Source: Spiroplasma kunkelii CR2-3x
Lineage (GTDB): Bacteria > Bacillota_I > Bacilli_A > Mycoplasmatales > Mycoplasmataceae
DNA: 64,000 nt
Direction: 5' to 3'
Assembly: GCF_001274875.1 (NCBI RefSeq)
Contig: NZ_CP010899.1
Span: 868,001-932,000 of the forward strand
Shown: positions 14,956 through 62,071 of the stretch, in pieces
Numbering within the stretch: position 1 is the stretch's first letter
How the letters are laid out: each line of letters starts with the position of its first letter
Program-made: the position numbers and the translations under genes
Notes under the pieces: generated by a model
Told to the model about the DNA's origin: nothing
Databases searched by the model: none
The model's input: the letters and a program-made list of their open reading frames with translations, nothing else

Positions 14956-15381
14956 ATGAAAACATTAAAAGATATGATTAAAGATTTAACAGGAGTTACT
15001 GTTGAAAAAGAAAAATTAAATCAATATTTAGAAAGTGAAAGATTAGATTTAGAAGGTGCTAATTTAGAAGGTGCTAATTTACAAGGTGCTAATTTATGAG
15101 ATGCTAATTTAGAAGGTGCTTATTTAACTGGTGCTAATTTATATGGTGCTTATTTAACTGGTGCTAATTTATATGGTGCTTATTTAACTGGTGCTAATTT
15201 AGAAGGTGCTAATTTAAAAGGTGCTAATTTACAAGGTGCTTATTTAACTGGTGCTAATTTATATGGTGCTTATTTAACTGGTGCTAATTTATATGGTGCT
15301 AATTTAAAAGGTGCTTATTTATGTGGTATTAAAATCACAAAAAAACAATTAGAACAATTAACTATTGAGGAGGATGAATAA
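14956..15381 (+). CDS. Pentapeptide-repeat protein
   Basis: 141 residues. Residues 1-34 form a helical leader ([20 protein letters not shown]), followed by 18 near-perfect A(N/Y)LxG pentapeptides and a short tail ([15 protein letters not shown]). Pentapeptide proteins fold as a right-handed beta-helix; some mimic DNA and protect gyrase, others are structural. Here the function is unknown. It lies in an intact stretch of the phage early region and its stop overlaps the next start (TAATG). Confidence 0.85.
15058..15327 (+). repeat. 15-bp tandem repeat array coding the pentapeptides
   Basis: Eighteen units of GCTAATTTAnnnGGT or GCTTATTTAnnnGGT, with a higher-order 30-bp unit ([10 protein letters not shown]) repeated five times. 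Near identity at DNA level indicates recent expansion by slippage. Confidence 0.9.
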
Positions 15382-41404: not shown

Positions 41405-41655
41405 AAAAAAGTATTTCTATAATCGGATAAATTACTATCAAAAAATAAAATATTTTTTATTCTTTAAAGTCTCCATAACAATGGAACAAATTATCCTGCT
41501 GGGATGTCATTCATAACTATATTTTCTCACTCTAATTTGAAATTTTTAATCTTTTAAAACTTTATTAACAAACATAGTAAAATACTCCTCAATATTATCC
41601 TGAAGCTTACTTAAAACATCTAAATCATTAGTTATAACTACTAGTATAGAAACCA
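41405..41655 (-). other. Decayed sequence between hypothetical gene and plectrovirus
   Basis: Minus-strand scraps such as VVITNDLDVLSKLQDNIEEYFTMFVNKVLKD and NDIPAG-stop-FVPLLWRL suggest small former genes, but nothing is intact or recognisable. Plectrovirus similarity begins at about 41656, where the sequence starts to match the complement of 61470. Confidence 0.35.
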
Positions 41656-41733
41656 CACACATTTTGTATTTTTGGTTTTTACAGTTTTGGAAAGTAAATT
41701 TTTTTTAATATTTTTAATTAAGAATTTGAAATT

Positions 41734-41856
41734 ATGCAAACAAAGCAATATTTTATTTTGCGGTCATTAGTAATTAAATATGCAAAAGATATTATTATTA
41801 TTATTAATAATACTGTAAATAAAATAGTAATTAATAATGTAAAAGAAAATGAATAA
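41734..41856 (+). CDS. Plectrovirus small basic protein
   Basis: 40 residues, MQTKQYFILRSLVIKYAKDII... NTVNKIVINNVKENE. Homologues at 61273-61383 and 62323-62436 read LVKKYGKDNVINTVNKI. Probable small DNA-binding or regulatory virus protein; function unknown. Confidence 0.6.
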   Translation: MQTKQYFILRSLVIKYAKDIIIIINNTVNKIVINNVKENE

Positions 41857-41889
41857 ATTATCCGCGTAATTTATTAGCGGTAATTTATT
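41852..41889 (+). repeat. Plectrovirus hairpin, copy 1
   Basis: Arms AATAAATTAtCCGC and GCGGTAATTTATT around an 11-base loop, followed by a G+C-rich stretch (about 41903-41936). Equivalent hairpins lie at 61228-61270 and 62290-62327, at the same place between two small genes. Confidence 0.8.
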
Positions 41890-41959
41890 TAATATTGTTT
41901 ATTTTGAGCGTAGCGAACACGCAGAGCGTAACACGATATTTTTATAGAGAAGATATATT

Positions 41960-42082
41960 ATGCCAACTTGATTAACGACAATATTTAGTGTTGTTATTAT
42001 ATTAGGGATTTTTTATTGAATTGGTTTATTAATTTATCAAAAAATTCGTCAAATTGAACGAAAGAAAAAAGAAAAAAAATAA
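41960..42082 (+). CDS. Plectrovirus small membrane protein
   Basis: 40 residues, [40 protein letters not shown]: one membrane helix and a strongly basic cytoplasmic tail, as in minor coat proteins of filamentous phages. Homologues at 60990-61139 and 62097-62219. Confidence 0.7.
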
Positions 42083-42117
42083 ATTGAAAGAAGTGAGGAT
42101 AAAAAATAATATTAGGT

Positions 42118-42357
42118 ATGTATTTAACAACAGCAGTTAATTTTTTAGCAAATACACCTAAAACTATGTCTGAGGGTATGAATGGTATTTGAACTGGATT
42201 AACTAGTGCATTATGAAAAGTTAAAGAAGGTATAACAAATATTTTACCTGAGATAATGGTTTTTTTAGGCAATGCGTGAATTATTTTAATTTTGTTTGCA
42301 ATTTTTTTTGATTATTAAAGTATTAAACTTTTTTGTGTTATGGTTAAAGGATTTTAG
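42118..42357 (+). pseudogene. Plectrovirus coat protein gene, frameshifted
   Basis: MYLTTAVNFLANTPKTMSEGMNGIWTGLTSALWKVKEG..., then one extra T in a poly-T run (42301-42309) changes the final helix and stops after FFDY. The intact homologue at 61823-62071 continues FLIIKVLNFF. Its upstream ATG has also become ATA (42109-42111). The coat of SpV1-type viruses is this small two-helix protein. Confidence 0.75.
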
Positions 42358-42423
42358 TATTTATTATTTATCATATATTTTAACTGTGGCACACTAGTTT
42401 TTATATGTGATTTGATGTAAAAA

Positions 42424-42522
42424 ATGAATTTATTAAATAGAAAAATAAACTTATTATATTTAATATTAAAGTTCTTAATAGTTATTTTCAGTGTGCCAAT
42501 TTTTATTATTTTATTTATTTAA
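42424..42522 (+). CDS. Plectrovirus small hydrophobic protein
   Basis: 32 residues, MNLLNRKINLLYLILKFLIVIFSVPIFIILFI; almost identical at 60568-60666. A single membrane helix; conserved in both virus copies. Confidence 0.55.
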   Translation: MNLLNRKINLLYLILKFLIVIFSVPIFIILFI

Positions 42523-42562
42523 CAATGTTTATTAAACAAATATTTAGTTAGGAGATTATATT

Positions 42563-42910
42563 ATGGATATTAAATTTAAAACAACTAAGGAATATAAAAA
42601 ATTAAAGAGAGATTTTATTAAAGATATTTTTTTATTAAGTTCAGTTACTTTTTTAGTTGTTTTAGTTGGCTCTGCTTTTTTAAGTTTTTTTATTTATTTG
42701 TTAATATTGAGTTGAAATGATAAAGATTTTTCACACTATTTGTACTTGCAATTATTATATATTTATGTGTCTGTAATTGTTTTTATGGGTATTATTTTTG
42801 CAATTATTATGTATATAAAATATATTTTTGAAATTAAGGTAGAATTTTATGTTGAAAAAGGAAAATTAAATCAATATTGACAAATTGAAGGAGTTGATAA
42901 AATTGAGTAA
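42563..42910 (+). CDS. Plectrovirus three-TM membrane protein
   Basis: 115 residues, [18 protein letters not shown] then hydrophobic helices ([43 protein letters not shown]) and the acidic tail [14 protein letters not shown] at 42563 behind TAGGAG. Intact here, while the copy at 60018-60343 is frameshifted. Function in the virus unknown. Confidence 0.6.
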
Positions 42911-43338
42911 TTTTGTTAAGAAAAATCAGAATATAGAAAATTATTTTATTAGTAAGGAATTTATCCCTTTTACAACAGATAAAGCAAGTTTTATTAATTT
43001 ACCCAATCATAATCGCCATATTGGTTTTTGGTTGAGTAATAAGTTTATTTATCCGAGTGAAAAACATTCAGAGCAAGTAGCAATCGGTTTGATTTATGAT
43101 AATTCTTATCCCCTATTATAAAGTATGATGAAAATTTAAAGAGAAATATTTGAAAATATTTAATTGGAACAGCCTTAATCAATTTATATAATCAATATAA
43201 ACAATATTATTTTACTAAAATGAAATAAGCGTTATTTTCAAGTGAACCTAAAAAAGTAAAAGCAAATAATAACAATAATAATTTTACAAATTTAAGTATT
43301 TAAAAAGTGCAAGAATTAATTAATGATTTAGAAAGTTT
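42903..43338 (+). pseudogene. Plectrovirus cytoplasmic protein, frameshift plus nonsense
   Basis: TTG start, [19 protein letters not shown]... to YDNSYP, then one extra C (43114-43117) breaks the frame, and GAA has become TAA at 43226-43228 (ATGAAATAAGCG against ATGAAAGAAGCG in the intact copy at 59585-60025). Confidence 0.7.
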
Positions 43339-43345
43339 AAATTAA

Positions 43346-43495
43346 ATAAGTTTATATGATTATTTATTTCAATTTGTTAGTTATATTATTGGTGCAAATG
43401 CCCCTGAGTTTTTATATGTTATATCGTTTGTGTTATTTATTGTTTTGTTTTTTGGAATGTTTTTTAAACTTATTCAAAAAATGTGGAGTTTTTAA
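43346..43495 (+). pseudogene. Plectrovirus small TM protein that lost its start codon
   Basis: ATA-AGT-TTA where copy 2 has ATG-AGT-TTA; the frame then reads LYDYLFQFVSYIIGANAPEFLYVISFVLFIVLFFGMFF to MWSF-stop. In copy 2 the start is good but a TAG interrupts the same helix. Confidence 0.6.
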
Positions 43496-43497
43496 AA

Positions 43498-43701
43498 ATG
43501 TAAAATGAATGAATTAAATTAAAAGAGTTTTTTATTCATATATTTTTGTTTATAGATAAAACAAATGTTGAAAGTATTACAATGTGGAATTTAACACAAA
43601 ATGAATATTTAACTTTAATGGTTGGTATTTTAATTGTGATTTGGTTTTTTACTTGGTTTTTAATGTGAATGGTTTTTAAGATAGTTGGGTATTTTAAATA
43701 A
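43498..43701 (+). pseudogene. Plectrovirus TM protein with CAA-to-TAA stop at codon 2
   Basis: ATG-TAA-AAT-GAA; the intact homologue at 59229-59432 starts ATG-CAA-AAT. The remaining frame (IKLKEFFIHIFLFIDKTNVESITM...FTWFLMWMVFKIVGYFK) is undamaged to 43701. Two hydrophobic helices; probable minor coat or assembly protein. Confidence 0.65.
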
Positions 43702-44465
43702 TGAAAAAGTTTATATTTTTCTTTAAAAACTATTGTTATATTAGTGGTTCAATGCTTTTGTTTAGTTTGGTTAATTTATTATTTTGGATAATTTCTTGGT
43801 ATTGTGTTGGTTTAGTATTTTGAATATTATTTGCTTTATAATGTGTTTATTTTGTGTGATAATTGTGAAAAAATATTTTTTATCAGTTAAATCCTTTTCG
43901 TTTAGTTCAGTTTATTTGACATAATCCGTTATCAGTTATTATTGGAAAGTTAGGGACCGGTAAAACATTACTTTTAACTTATTTATCGCAAGTTATGAAA
44001 TTATTCACATATGAAATTTATAGTAATTATCCGTTAGAAGATGATAAAGTTAAAGTTTTAACATTTAAAAATTTAGATTTTACCGATCGAACAAAACCAG
44101 TCCCACCCGATGATAGTGTTATTTTATTTGGTGAAAGTTATTTGTATATTGATGGAACTAGTCCTCATGATGAGAAAAAAGTTCATAGTGGTAAAATACC
44201 GTGAATTGTTTTAGCAAGACATTTCGGTAATCCTGCGTTGTTTACTGCTCAGCGTGAGGGTATGATTTAAAATAATATTCGCCAGTTAGCAAGTGGCATT
44301 ATTATTCCAATTTCATTGAAAAAACCAGTTATTAAGAAAGGTTTTAATTTTTTTAACCGTTTCTTTATTATGCGAATTGGTATTTTCCAAGATATTACCG
44401 ATTATGAAATTTGAAAAACAAAATCAGTAGAACGAACAGCACAAGATACAAAGTTAAAGAAATAG
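43701..44465 (+). pseudogene. Plectrovirus P1 assembly ATPase (Zot-like), nonsense mutated
   Basis: 255 codons in one frame. N-terminal helix MKKFIFFFKNYCYISGSMLLFSLVNLL, Walker A IIGKLGTGKTLLLTYL, Walker B-like SYLYIDGTS, and LARHFGNPALFTAQREGM. TAA codons at about 43840 and 43862, and after REGMI (44268), stop it. Zot-like proteins drive extrusion of filamentous phage. Copy 2 keeps only the first 36 codons. Confidence 0.7.
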
Positions 44466-55140: not shown

Positions 55141-55241
55141 CTTCTTAACCCTTTTCTTTTCTTTTTTTTATTATACTAAAACTTTAGAATTTTCTTTAAT
55201 AATTGCTAAATATGTTATAATTTTTTAAGAGGTGATTTTTA

Positions 55242-55823
55242 GTGTTTCAAAATGAAATACCAACTAAAGACTGACTAGTATTTGATAATACACCGTCAAT
55301 TCGACAACCATCAATTGATGTCTCTTTAACATTAGCACCTGAAAATGAACTTGTAATGCAAAAATTAATTGATTTTGTAAGATATTCCCAAGATCCGCAA
55401 AAAAATAGTGGTCATACAATTATACCAGCTGTTGGTTTAGCTGCTCCTCAAATTGGACATAATATTAAAATGTATTATATTAGAATTGAAGAGACAGATA
55501 AAGAAACAGGAGATAAAAAAATAATTGAACATGCAATGATTAATCCTAAAATTATTGGAAAAAGTGAACAAATAGCTTGTATAAAAGAAGGCGAAGGTTG
55601 TTTAAGCGTTAATGGTGATAAAGAAGGTTTTGTCCCTCGTAGTTTTCGAATTATTATTAAAGGTTATGATTATTTAAAACAACAACAAATAACAATTACT
55701 GCCCGTAGTTATGAAGCAATTGTTTTTCAACATGAACAAGCACATTTAGAAGGTAAATTATATTATGATTTAATTAATAAAACCGAACCTTGAATGAAAA
55801 AAAGTGATTGAATTATTTTATAA
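55242..55823 (+). CDS. def: Peptide deformylase
   Basis: Removes formyl from nascent N-terminal Met. 193 residues. The three motifs are present: GLAAPQIG (motif 1), EGEGCLSV (motif 2, with the metal-binding Cys), and the H-E-x-x-H motif 3 as QHEQAHLEG, where most family members have HEFDH. GTG start behind AAGAGGTG. Divergent from rsmD. A degraded duplicate follows at 55925. TGA-Trp in KDWLVFD and at the C-terminus. Confidence 0.95.
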
Positions 55824-55856: not shown

Positions 55857-55924
55857 GTTTTAAATACTAATTATATTTTCTTATTTTAATTCTTATGATA
55901 AAATCCCATCAGAGGTTATTTTTA

Positions 55925-56525
55925 ATGCTACAAAATGAAGTACCAACTCATGACTGATTAGTATTGGATGACACTCCATCAATTCAGCAACCATTAATTG
56001 ATGTGTCTGTATCCTTAACACCCGAAAATAAACTTGTAATGCAAAAATTAATTGATTTTGTAAGATATTCGCATACTCCCCCCCCAAAAAAAAATAATGC
56101 CAATAAGATTAAACCAGCTGTTGGTTTAGCCTCTCCTCAAATTTGACATAATCTTAAAATGTATTATATTCGAATTGAAGAGACAGATGACGAAACAGGA
56201 GATAAAAAAAATAATTGAACATGCAATGATTAATCCTAAAATTATCGGAAAAAGTGAACAAATAGCTTGTATAGAAGAAGGCGAAGGTTGTTTAGGCGTT
56301 AATGGTGATAAAGAAGGTTTTGTTCCCCGTAGTTTTGAGATTATTGTTGAAAGTTATGATTATTCAAAACAATAACAAGTAACAATTACTGCCTGTAGTT
56401 ATGAAGCAATTGTTTTTCAACATGAACAAGCAAATTTAGAAGGTAAATTATATTATGATTTAATTAATAAAAACGAACCTTAAATGAAAAAAAGTGATTA
56501 AATTTAGTGATTGAATTATTGTATA
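55925..56525 (+). pseudogene. Degraded tandem duplicate of peptide deformylase
   Basis: MLQNEVPTHDWLVLDDTPSIQQP... is about 80% identical to def. Damage: a poly-C/poly-A run at about 56076-56095 inserted in the loop, motif 1 changed to GLASPQIW, a frameshift near 56205, motif 2 changed to EGCLGV, a TAA after DYSKQ, and motif 3 changed to HEQAN, so the second zinc His is lost. C-terminal stops near 56481 and 56497 add to this. Confidence 0.9.
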
Positions 56526-59112: not shown

Positions 59113-59229
59113 ACCAAAACCAACACAATACCAAGAAATTATCCAAAATAATAAATTAACCAAACTAAACAAAAGCATTGAACCACTAATATAACAATAG
59201 TTTTTAAAGAAAAATATAAACTTTTTCAT
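59112..59229 (-). pseudogene. Plectrovirus P1 N-terminal fragment
   Basis: MKKFIFFFKNYCYISGSMLLFSLVNLLFWIISWYCVG is identical to copy 1, then sequence switches to chromosomal DNA antisense to the AlaX-like gene. ATPase domain lost. Confidence 0.75.
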
Positions 59230-59432
59230 TATTTAAAATACCCAACTATCTTAAAAACCATTCACATTAAAAACCAAGTAAAAGACCAAATCACAATTCA
59301 AATACCAACCATTAAAGTTAAATATTCATTTTGTGTTAAATTCCACATTGTAATACTTTCAACATTCATTTTATCTATAAACAAAAATATATGAATAAAA
59401 AACTCTTTTAATTTAATTCAATCATTTTGCAT
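59229..59432 (-). CDS. Plectrovirus TM protein, intact
   Basis: 67 residues, MQNDWIKLKEFFIHIFLFIDKMNVESITMWNLTQNEYLTLMVG, two hydrophobic helices and a VGYFK end. Homologue of the stop-mutated gene at 43498; identical length. Probable minor coat or assembly protein. Confidence 0.65.
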
Positions 59433-59434
59433 AT

Positions 59435-59584
59435 TTAAAAACTCCACATTTTTTGAATAAGTTTAAAAAACATTCCAAAAAACAAAACAATAAATAACAC
59501 AAACTATATAAGATATAAAAACTCAGGAGCATTTGAACCAATAATATAACTAACAAATTGAACTCAATAATCATATAAACTCAT
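59435..59584 (-). pseudogene. Plectrovirus small TM protein with TAG
   Basis: MSLYDYWVQFVSYIIGSNAPEFLYLI-TAG-FVLFIVLFFGMFFKLIQKMWSF. Copy 1 has TCG (Ser) at the stop position but lacks the start codon. Confidence 0.6.
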
Positions 59585-60025
59585 TTAATTTAAATCTTCC
59601 AAATCTTTAATTAATTGTTGCTCTTTTTCAACAGTTCAATTTATTAAATTATTATTGTTATTATTTGCTTTTACTTTTTTAGGTTCACTTGAAAATAACG
59701 CTTCTTTCATTTTAGTAAAATAATTTTGTTTATATTGATTATATAAATTGATTAATTCTGTTCCAGTTAAATATTTTCAAATATTTCGCTTTAAATTTTC
59801 ATCATACTTTATAATAGGATAAGAATTATCATAAATCAAACCAATTGCTACTTGCTCTGAATGTTTTTCACTCGGATAAATAAACTTATTACTCAACCAA
59901 AAACCAATATGGCGATTATGATTGGGTAAATTAATAAAACTTGCTTTATCTGTTGTAAAAGGGATAAATTCCTTACTAATAAAATAATTTTCTATATTCT
60001 GATTTTTCTTAATATAATTACTCAA
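59585..60025 (-). CDS. Plectrovirus cytoplasmic protein, intact
   Basis: 146 residues from TTG at 60025, [29 protein letters not shown]..., ending [13 protein letters not shown] with a run of six Asn. TTG is chosen because GGAG lies about 9 bases upstream and the preceding gene ends there. Homologue of the broken gene at 42903. Function unknown. Confidence 0.65.
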
Positions 60026-60343
60026 TTTTATCAACTCCTTCAATTTGTCAATATTGAATTAATTTTTCTTTTTCAACATCAAAATCCACCTTAATTTCAA
60101 AAATATATTTTATATGCATAATAATCATAAAAATAAATGATATAAAAGCAAATACAGACATAATAATTTCAAAGAATGGAAAATCTTTACCATAACTTAA
60201 TATTGAAAGATAAATAAATAAACTTAAAATAAATAAATTAATAATATGTCCAAAAAACAAATCAAATTTAATCAAAAAATATCTTTAATAAAATCTCTCT
60301 TTATTTTTTTATATTCCTTAGTTGTTTTAAATTTCATATCCAT
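60018..60343 (-). pseudogene. Plectrovirus three-TM membrane protein, frameshifted
   Basis: [24 protein letters not shown], then the reading shifts by one base near 60275 into IKFDLFFGHIINLFILSLFIYLSILSYGKDF... to [11 protein letters not shown]. The copy at 42563-42910 is intact. Confidence 0.65.
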
Positions 60344-60419
60344 AATATAATCTCCTAACTAAATATTTGTTGTAAATTAACAGCTCACAACTTAACTAAA
60401 AAAATTAAACACTTATTTA

Positions 60420-60580
60420 GAAAACATTTACAGCTTAATAAACAATGTTATAAATAATGTTCGTATAATGTTTATTTATTGTAATAAACACTGATTATTA
60501 ACAATGTTATAAAAAATGTTAATATATTGTTTATTTAATGTTTAATAAACACTGTTAATAAACATTGTTAAATATATAAA
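60420..60580. repeat. TAATAAACA/TGTTTATTA repeat cluster
   Basis: At least seven copies of AACAATGTT, TGTTTATT or AATAAACA and their complements in 160 bases, able to form alternative hairpins. Copy 1 has only one or two units here (42520-42545), so the cluster expanded in this copy. Confidence 0.75.
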
Positions 60581-60666
60581 ATAATAAAAATTGGCACACT
60601 GAAAATAACTATTAAGAACTTTAATAGTAAATATAATAAGTTCATTTTTCTATTTAATAAATTCAT
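60568..60666 (-). CDS. Plectrovirus small hydrophobic protein
   Basis: 32 residues, MNLLNRKMNLLYLLLKFLIVIFSVPIFIILYI; matches 42424-42522 with three substitutions. One membrane helix. Confidence 0.55.
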   Translation of the reverse strand: MNLLNRKMNLLYLLLKFLIVIFSVPIFIILYI

Positions 60667-60732
60667 TTTTTACATCAAATCACATATAAAAACTAGTGTG
60701 CCACAGTTAAAATATATGATAAATAATAAATA

Positions 60733-60990
60733 CTAAACTCCTTTAACCATAATACGGAAAAAATTTAATATTTTTATAATACAAAATATAGCAAACGGAA
60801 TTAAAATAATTCACGCATCGCCTAAAAAAACCATTATCTCAGGTAAAATATTTGTTACACCATCTTTAAATTTTCATAATGCACTAGTTAATCCAGTTCA
60901 AATACCAGTCATACCCTCAGTCATAGTTTTAGGTGTAGGTGCTGTTGTTATTAAAAAATTAACCGCCGTTGTTAAATACATACCTAACAT
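60733..60990 (-). CDS. Plectrovirus coat protein, copy 2a
   Basis: 85 residues, [34 protein letters not shown]... FKDGVTNILPEIMVFLGDAWIILIPFAIFCIIKILNFFRIMVKG. Amphipathic helix followed by a membrane helix and a basic end, as expected for a filamentous virus major coat. Strong AAAGGAGG site; start overlaps the previous stop. Intact, and the N-terminal ITTAPTP is three residues longer than in copy 2b. Confidence 0.8.
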
Positions 60991-61139
60991 TATTTTTTAT
61001 CCTCCTTTCTTTCAATTTCTTTTTTATCTTTTTTATTTCGTTCAATTTGACGAATTTTTTGATAAATTCCTAAACCAATATAAAGAAAAATCCCCAATAC
61101 AATAAGAACACTAAATATTGTCGTTAATCAAATTGGCAT
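60990..61139 (-). CDS. Plectrovirus small membrane protein, copy 2a
   Basis: 49 residues, [49 protein letters not shown]. Homologue of 41960-42082 but with a nine-residue longer charged tail. One membrane helix. Confidence 0.7.
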
Positions 61140-61227
61140 AATATAACTCCCTTCTAAAAAATTAAAAAATTGAAATTTGCAAACTCGCTCCGCTCGTTGT
61201 CGCTTCGCTCCATTAAAAAACATTATT

Positions 61228-61270
61228 GAATAAATTATTCCGCGTAATTTATTAGCGGAATAATTTATTC
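61228..61270. repeat. Plectrovirus hairpin, copy 2a (16-bp perfect arms)
   Basis: GAATAAATTATTCCGC and its exact complement around the 11-base loop GTAATTTATTA. A G+C-rich block of CTCGCTCCGCTCG/CGCTTCGCTC type lies at about 61183-61211, before the next small gene. Confidence 0.85.
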
Positions 61271-61272
61271 TT

Positions 61273-61383
61273 TTACTTTTTAATTTCAATATCTTTTGCA
61301 ATCTTATTAACAGTATTAATAACATTATCTTTACCATACTTTTTCACTAGCGACCGCAAAATAAAATATTGCTTTGTTTGCAT
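61273..61383 (-). CDS. Plectrovirus small basic protein, copy 2a
   Basis: 36 residues, MQTKQYFILRSLVKKYGKDNVINTVNKIAKDIEIKK. Homologue of 41734-41856. AAGGAG-type ribosome site upstream. Confidence 0.6.
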   Translation of the reverse strand: MQTKQYFILRSLVKKYGKDNVINTVNKIAKDIEIKK

Positions 61384-61497
61384 AATTTCAACTCCTTAAT
61401 TAAAAATATTAAAAAAATTTACTTTCCAAAACTGTAAAAACCAAAAATACAAAATGTGTGTGGTTTCTACACATTTATAATTAAATTGATATTTTTA

Positions 61498-61739
61498 ACA
61501 CTATATACTGTTTACAAATTTTAAAATAGAAATATTTTTTACAACATTATTTATATTAATTCTTACTAAAAAAATATTTTTCATAATAGACTCAATATTA
61601 TGAATAATAAACAATATAAATTTATCAACCATAGAAAATATAGTTAATCTTATATATATAATAGGAATTTTTATTATTCCAATATTAACAATAGTAATAA
61701 AGTTTATTAAAAAATAAATTTGTAAACAGTATATAGTGT
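61498..61739. mobile_element. 242-bp insert with perfect 24-bp terminal inverted repeats
   Basis: ACACTATATACTGTTTACAA plus TTT at one end and the exact complement at the other. Inside is a single plus-strand open frame for a membrane peptide. It sits exactly between plectrovirus copies 2a and 2b. It resembles a miniature inverted-repeat element, but no target-site duplication is obvious. Confidence 0.6.
61518..61721 (+). CDS. Hydrophobic peptide inside inverted-repeat element
   Basis: Frame without ATG at its start: FKIEIFFTTLFILILTKKIFF, IIDSILWIINNINLSTIENIVNLIYIIGIFIIPILTIVIKFIKK. Two strongly hydrophobic helices; one TGA-Trp. Expression is doubtful. Confidence 0.3.
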
Positions 61740-61822: not shown

Positions 61823-62071
61823 CTAAAATCCTTTAACCATAACACAGAAAAAGTTTAATACTTTAATAATTAAAAAAATTGCAAACGGAATTAAAATAAT
61901 TCACGCATTGCCTAAAAAAACCATTATCTCAGGTAAAATATTTGTTATACCTTCTTTAACTTTTCATAATGCACTAGTTAATCCAGTTCAAATACCATTC
62001 ATACCCTCAGACATAGTTTTAGGTGTATTTGCTAAAAAATTAACTGCTGTTGTTAAATACATACCTAACAT
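61823..62071 (-). CDS. Plectrovirus coat protein, copy 2b
   Basis: 82 residues, [41 protein letters not shown]... FAIFLIIKVLNFFCVMVKGF. Intact. Nearly identical to the frameshifted copy 1 gene, and about 75% identical to copy 2a. Strong AAGGAGG site. Confidence 0.8.

Follow-up and report, generated by a model that had tools for sequence, protein, structure and literature searches.

A 242-bp inverted-repeat-bounded unit beside a virus-in-virus junction in Spiroplasma kunkelii is probably a cassette of SpV1-like filamentous viruses with a small opposite-strand gene

The window analysed here is a stretch of 64,000 nucleotides from the chromosome of Spiroplasma kunkelii CR2-3x (NZ_CP010899.1, positions 868,001 to 932,000), a Spiroplasma-type genome that was read with genetic code 4. 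Beside the junction of two integrated virus copies, 2a and 2b, lies a unit of 242 bp whose 24-bp ends are inverted complements of each other (Table 1). An earlier note on this DNA had described perfect inverted ends around a small hydrophobic ORF, and we found both: the complementarity of the ends at 61498-61739 was computed to be exact, and small hydrophobic open frames are present on both strands of the unit (minus strand, 90 aa; plus strand, an open stretch of 72 codons). Pairing of the arms extends imperfectly to ~45 nt at 87%. When up to three mismatches were allowed, the 24-mer arm was matched within the 64-kb window only by these two arms, and there were no matches in 100 dinucleotide shuffles. 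A second 242-bp copy, oppositely oriented and with a single mismatch between its arms, lies on the same chromosome at C1:933144-933385, and a remnant with only one arm lies near C1:1394846; the copy in the window is the only one with neither a mismatch nor a wobble pair in its arms.

Table 1. Positions of the features discussed (window coordinates unless a contig or locus is named)
Feature	Position	Strand	Remarks
Virus copy 2a	59117..61471	-	A-deleted form of the region downstream of ORF7
Left end of virus copy 2a (TGTAGAAACCACACACATTTTG)	61450..61471	-	same end at most integrated copies examined, preceding DNA different each time
15-bp target of the copy 2a insertion (ATTTAATTATAAATG)	61472..61486	-	uninterrupted in the sister copy, C1:933396-933410
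Arm A' (virus-sense downstream arm)	61498..61521	-	corresponds to inverted repeat A', X51344 5780-5810
Decayed small membrane-protein gene (probable)	61499..61717	+	the 72-codon open stretch; positions 13-84 of the 84-residue model match; N-terminal part replaced, no clear start codon
Interior, 194 nt	61522..61715	.	shorter than in long copies (~256-266 nt)
Arm A (virus-sense upstream arm, nearest ORF7)	61716..61739	-	exact complement of 61498-61521; aligns with inverted repeat A, X51344 5493-5523
ORF7 of virus copy 2b	61826..62071	-	gene preceding every element copy
Head-to-head pieces (G002)	L262:4754-6580 and L263:4704-6635		left end, ORF7, cassette A, ORF7 reversed, left end reversed
Cassette C, inverted-repeat-bounded, 305 bp	L075:147-451; also L271 (G000:C1:1381400-1382100)		gene opposite to viral genes

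A search of phage records identified the same sequence in SpV1-R8A2B (X51344, NC_001365), where the arms are annotated as inverted repeats A and A', directly after ORF7 and adjoining inverted repeats B and B' with ORF8. The window unit is likewise directly downstream of ORF7, its arms are homologous to A/A', and its interior shares the backbone of the X51344 interior but has a different tail. The R8A2B unit measures 304 bp between arm ends and has one mismatch between its arms, whereas the window unit measures 242 bp and has perfect arms. Because these repeats are already annotated, the element itself is not new.

From eight genomes we collected 100 virus copies and took up to 1.6 kb of sequence beyond ORF7 in each; with eight reference sites, drawn from phage and plasmid records and from the window itself, this gave 108 ORF7 sites. 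Both A arms were present at 46 of the 108, each time ~80 bp past ORF7, and these sites are spread over five Spiroplasma genomes, R8A2B and an S. citri plasmid; genome-wide maps of the arms matched this layout. Exact 21-mer scans of genome-contig and viral-contig collections gave no outside match, no copy of the element was found outside such sequence in the genomes and records searched, and an Rfam search returned no family. The unit is neither confined to this locus nor invariant: besides the second chromosomal copy and the remnant, related genomes hold dozens of copies with differing interiors, for which the earlier note had proposed to look. Total length ranges from 103 to 316 bp, and most of the interiors can be read as one ~265-nt interior with deletions. 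An inverted interior was seen in none of the 46 two-armed copies, and the idea of an invertible element was rejected. (Note that in genome G008 one copy, at L265:405-1731, is interrupted by an insertion with transposase-like reading frames.) Taken together, we think it probable that the window unit is cassette A of SpV1-like filamentous viruses (genus Vespertiliovirus), that is, one small opposite-strand gene between inverted repeats of ~24-31 bp at a fixed place after ORF7, here adjoining a nested-insertion junction.

The unit was said to be absent from virus copy 1 (41611-43813), and comparison bore this out. The copies without the unit (among them 2a, copy 1, SkV1 and C74) are deletions that end inside cassette B, the neighbouring unit of SpV1-R8A2B that is bounded by B/B' and holds ORF8. 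Cassette B resembles cassette A in its small hydrophobic frame and its outer flanks, but its arms differ and ORF8 is annotated on the viral strand; no significant similarity was detected between ORF8 and the cassette A protein. Read outward, the ends of cassettes A and B, and of a third unit that we call cassette C, have in most cases an AATA-(about 5-6 nt)-TTAATTAT-like flank that may point to a shared origin. Of cassette B itself, the copy in L066 (X51344) has a near-exact ~16-bp direct repeat (TATCAAYTTAATTATA) at its borders, and copies lacking B hold the repeat once; thus, B would either have been inserted with a duplication or been deleted between direct repeats.

The earlier note had placed the unit exactly between copies 2a and 2b and had suggested a role in tandem integration. 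The unit does adjoin the junction, but it belongs to copy 2b: copy 2a begins with the standard integrated end (TGTAGAAACC...) at 61471, 26 bp outside the unit and inside virus 2b. The sequence ATTTAATTATAAATG directly before 2a is the flank of the element in copy 2b, and the fact that it runs uninterrupted in the sister copy argues, together with the position of the 2a end, that copy 2a is nested in copy 2b and that the element did not cause a tandem array. Most integrated copies in this genome start with TGTAGAAACCACACACATTTTG or something close to it, each after different DNA, and at the other end AAAATGTATGTGGTATACTACA or a close variant is seen in many. In seven pairs (L211/L236, L208/L244, L209/L246, L210/L235, L212/L234, L206/L258 and L205/L239; ends TGTAGAAACC... 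and ...GGTATACTACA) identical 15-bp flanks, for example GGTGTTCCAAGAAAA and AATCAAAAGAAATAG, are found on both sides. These target duplications newly delimit the integrated copies, and the fact that the copies have ends and duplications of their own speaks against the proposed role in integration. A search for the far end of copy 2a did not find it, and only one copy of the target is visible. ORF3 of SkV1 has an rve domain (DDE-type), and according to the ICTV these phages transpose, a circular intermediate being provided by the packaged genome (PMC8295915). The virus-in-virus junction can be explained if copy 2a, using a transposase-like route of its own with TGTAG...CTACA ends and a target duplication of 15 bp, entered copy 2b at a distance of 26 bp from the element; the element would then touch 2a because 2a inserted beside it.

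Long interiors of cassette A are open on both strands. The frame opposite to the viral genes (window plus strand) has 84-85 codons and fills the space between the arms, where the public SpV1-R8A2B record annotates no gene. Between the two types of element (R8A2B versus L173) this frame has the lowest pN/pS of the six frames, 0.44, with values of 0.42-0.49 over four comparisons with the long copy L173 (Fisher p 0.003, uncorrected for the six frames). The viral-sense frame was considered as the gene and rejected: its pN/pS between the two types is 0.70, which is not significant, and it does not resemble the corresponding strand of cassette C. A model of the opposite-strand frame found 14 full-length matches free of TAA and TAG in three species (genomes G002, G004 and G006), and about 35 of its 49 matches are partial or broken. 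The frame has no ATG; immediately within the arm there is a AAAGTAGGTG that resembles a ribosome site.

The case for an opposite-strand gene depends chiefly on homology to the protein of cassette C, a unit of SpV1-like copies that was not found in the phage records searched. The cassette C gene encodes 89 aa, has an ATG start and begins MVFSPHKS inside the arm. Profiles of the cassette A and C proteins align with an hhalign E value of 1.4e-5, and the opposite-strand pair scores z 7-8 over shuffles, with other strand combinations at z 2.1 or below; each protein has two hydrophobic segments. Pfam gave no match for any of the three cassette proteins, and in PHROGs only ORF8 itself was matched (phrog_34178). 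In IMG/VR the cassette A protein had no relative, and the cassette C protein matched three viral contigs from one source. From these sequence comparisons we infer that a small gene for a membrane protein has been overlooked on the opposite strand of the cassette A interior and that its product is made. The evidence for an overlooked family of opposite-strand genes in two hairpin-bounded cassettes of spiroplasma filamentous viruses is new. In the window copy, the N-terminal part has been replaced by sequence common to the end of the cassette C gene (a 36-nt stretch of the interior is also present in cassette C elsewhere in the virus), and thus this copy of the gene is probably dead, a decayed hybrid.

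The 18 distinct arm pairs comprise 576 positions, of which 505 are Watson-Crick and 22 wobble pairs; shuffled pairings gave a mean of 494.8 (sd 3.2), and none of 2000 reached the observed value in this comparison, which ignores kinship. At position 15 the two arm types are distinguished by a T-A to C-G change that is compensated, G-T forms occur at positions 14 and 16, and position 9 is an A-C mismatch throughout one arm type. (Note that most elements fall into the two types, so that independent compensatory events are few.) In predicted RNA folds the arms lie in the stem, with z of about -5.6 to -10. Since the changes in the arms largely keep pairing, the arms likely act as a hairpin: in single-stranded viral DNA, or in RNA made from it, they would pair as a long stem and leave the gene looped out between them, and on these predictions the stem would also form in the cell. 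A role in packaging, which the earlier note had also raised, is possible, and the existence of phages C74 and SkV1 without the element indicates that it is dispensable.

If the arms acted only as a hairpin (a terminator, a packaging or replication signal, or an RNA stabiliser), the interior could be a gene-less spacer. The preserved pairing and strong predicted stem would suit such a spacer, as would the broken frames of many chromosomal copies and the persistence of the arms in many integrated copies whose interior has been shortened by deletions, at the extreme to 55 nt. However, neither the constraint on the opposite-strand frame nor its strand-specific protein homology to cassette C is expected of a spacer, no T-run follows either arm, and C74 argues that the element is not essential for packaging or replication. 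We therefore regard a hairpin around a mere spacer as unlikely and prefer a cassette that carries a gene.

Inverted arms might also recombine or fold back to generate head-to-head virus copies. At two places in G002, two copies of ORF7 face each other across a single element, the left flank lies on either side and the breakpoints fall within the arms; the head-to-head arms in L262 and L263 are 97.2% and 99.6% identical. Both cases are centred on the element, but they are only two, no reciprocal right-right product was found, and L263 has no target duplication at its two left ends. Moreover, such products are a consequence of inverted repeats and not proof of purpose, and we consider it decidedly unlikely that the arms are explained in this way.

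The earlier note had also raised a miniature transposable element, that is, one inserted into the virus and still moving by its 24-bp ends. The terminal inverted repeats, the size range, the differing interior lengths and the presence or absence of the unit between virus copies are what one would look for in such an element. Against this, every located copy is at the same place after ORF7 and none at an unrelated genomic site, the virus copies without it are deletions running into cassette B rather than empty sites, and the compared flanks have no target duplication. The confinement to SpV1-like sequence argues that the unit is not an independent transposon, and we judge mobility by the 24-bp ends to be highly improbable.

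In CTX-type filamentous phages, an attP hairpin forms from inverted arms in single-stranded DNA, and the arms of cassette A could fold into a duplex of similar appearance. A Xer/dif-like site pair for virus integration, as suggested earlier, can nevertheless be practically dismissed, since the host lacks tyrosine recombinases (PF00589 is absent from its genome and present in 14 of 14 control genomes), a Firmicutes-type dif query had no match with three or fewer mismatches in the genome, integration uses other, transposon-like ends with 15-bp duplications, and the one 28-bp core candidate, a marginal 21/28 match to Bacillus subtilis dif in the variable interior of the window unit, was not visible in the other interiors compared, no core being conserved between copies.

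What the product of cassette A might do can be judged from its predicted character. For a membrane protein encoded on the opposite strand of a persistent phage, superinfection exclusion comes to mind, and we tentatively propose that it acts at the membrane, with superinfection exclusion or prophage immunity as the most plausible roles; if superinfection exclusion is the role, the proteins could bear on the virus resistance of spiroplasma lines with integrated viral DNA. In CTX-type phages, repressor genes run opposite to the main phage operon, and cassette A resembles these as a small opposite-strand gene in the intergenic region of a filamentous phage. Its product, however, is hydrophobic and of membrane type with no repressor domain, and its gene is bounded by inverted repeats. 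Single-stranded promoters such as Frpo serve conjugative plasmids. By analogy of early expression from an incoming single strand, the virion strand might be the template for the hairpin-bounded genes of cassettes A and C, with the arms forming a double-stranded promoter on incoming DNA and the membrane proteins being made before second-strand synthesis, perhaps blocking superinfection; we give this idea little credence.

Elsewhere in the window, a gene resembling peptide deformylase is tandemly duplicated at 88.6% identity (55228-55814 and 55911-56504), with the second copy broken into two frames, and self-comparison of the window revealed a tandem repeat array with a period of ~30 bp at 15047-15327.
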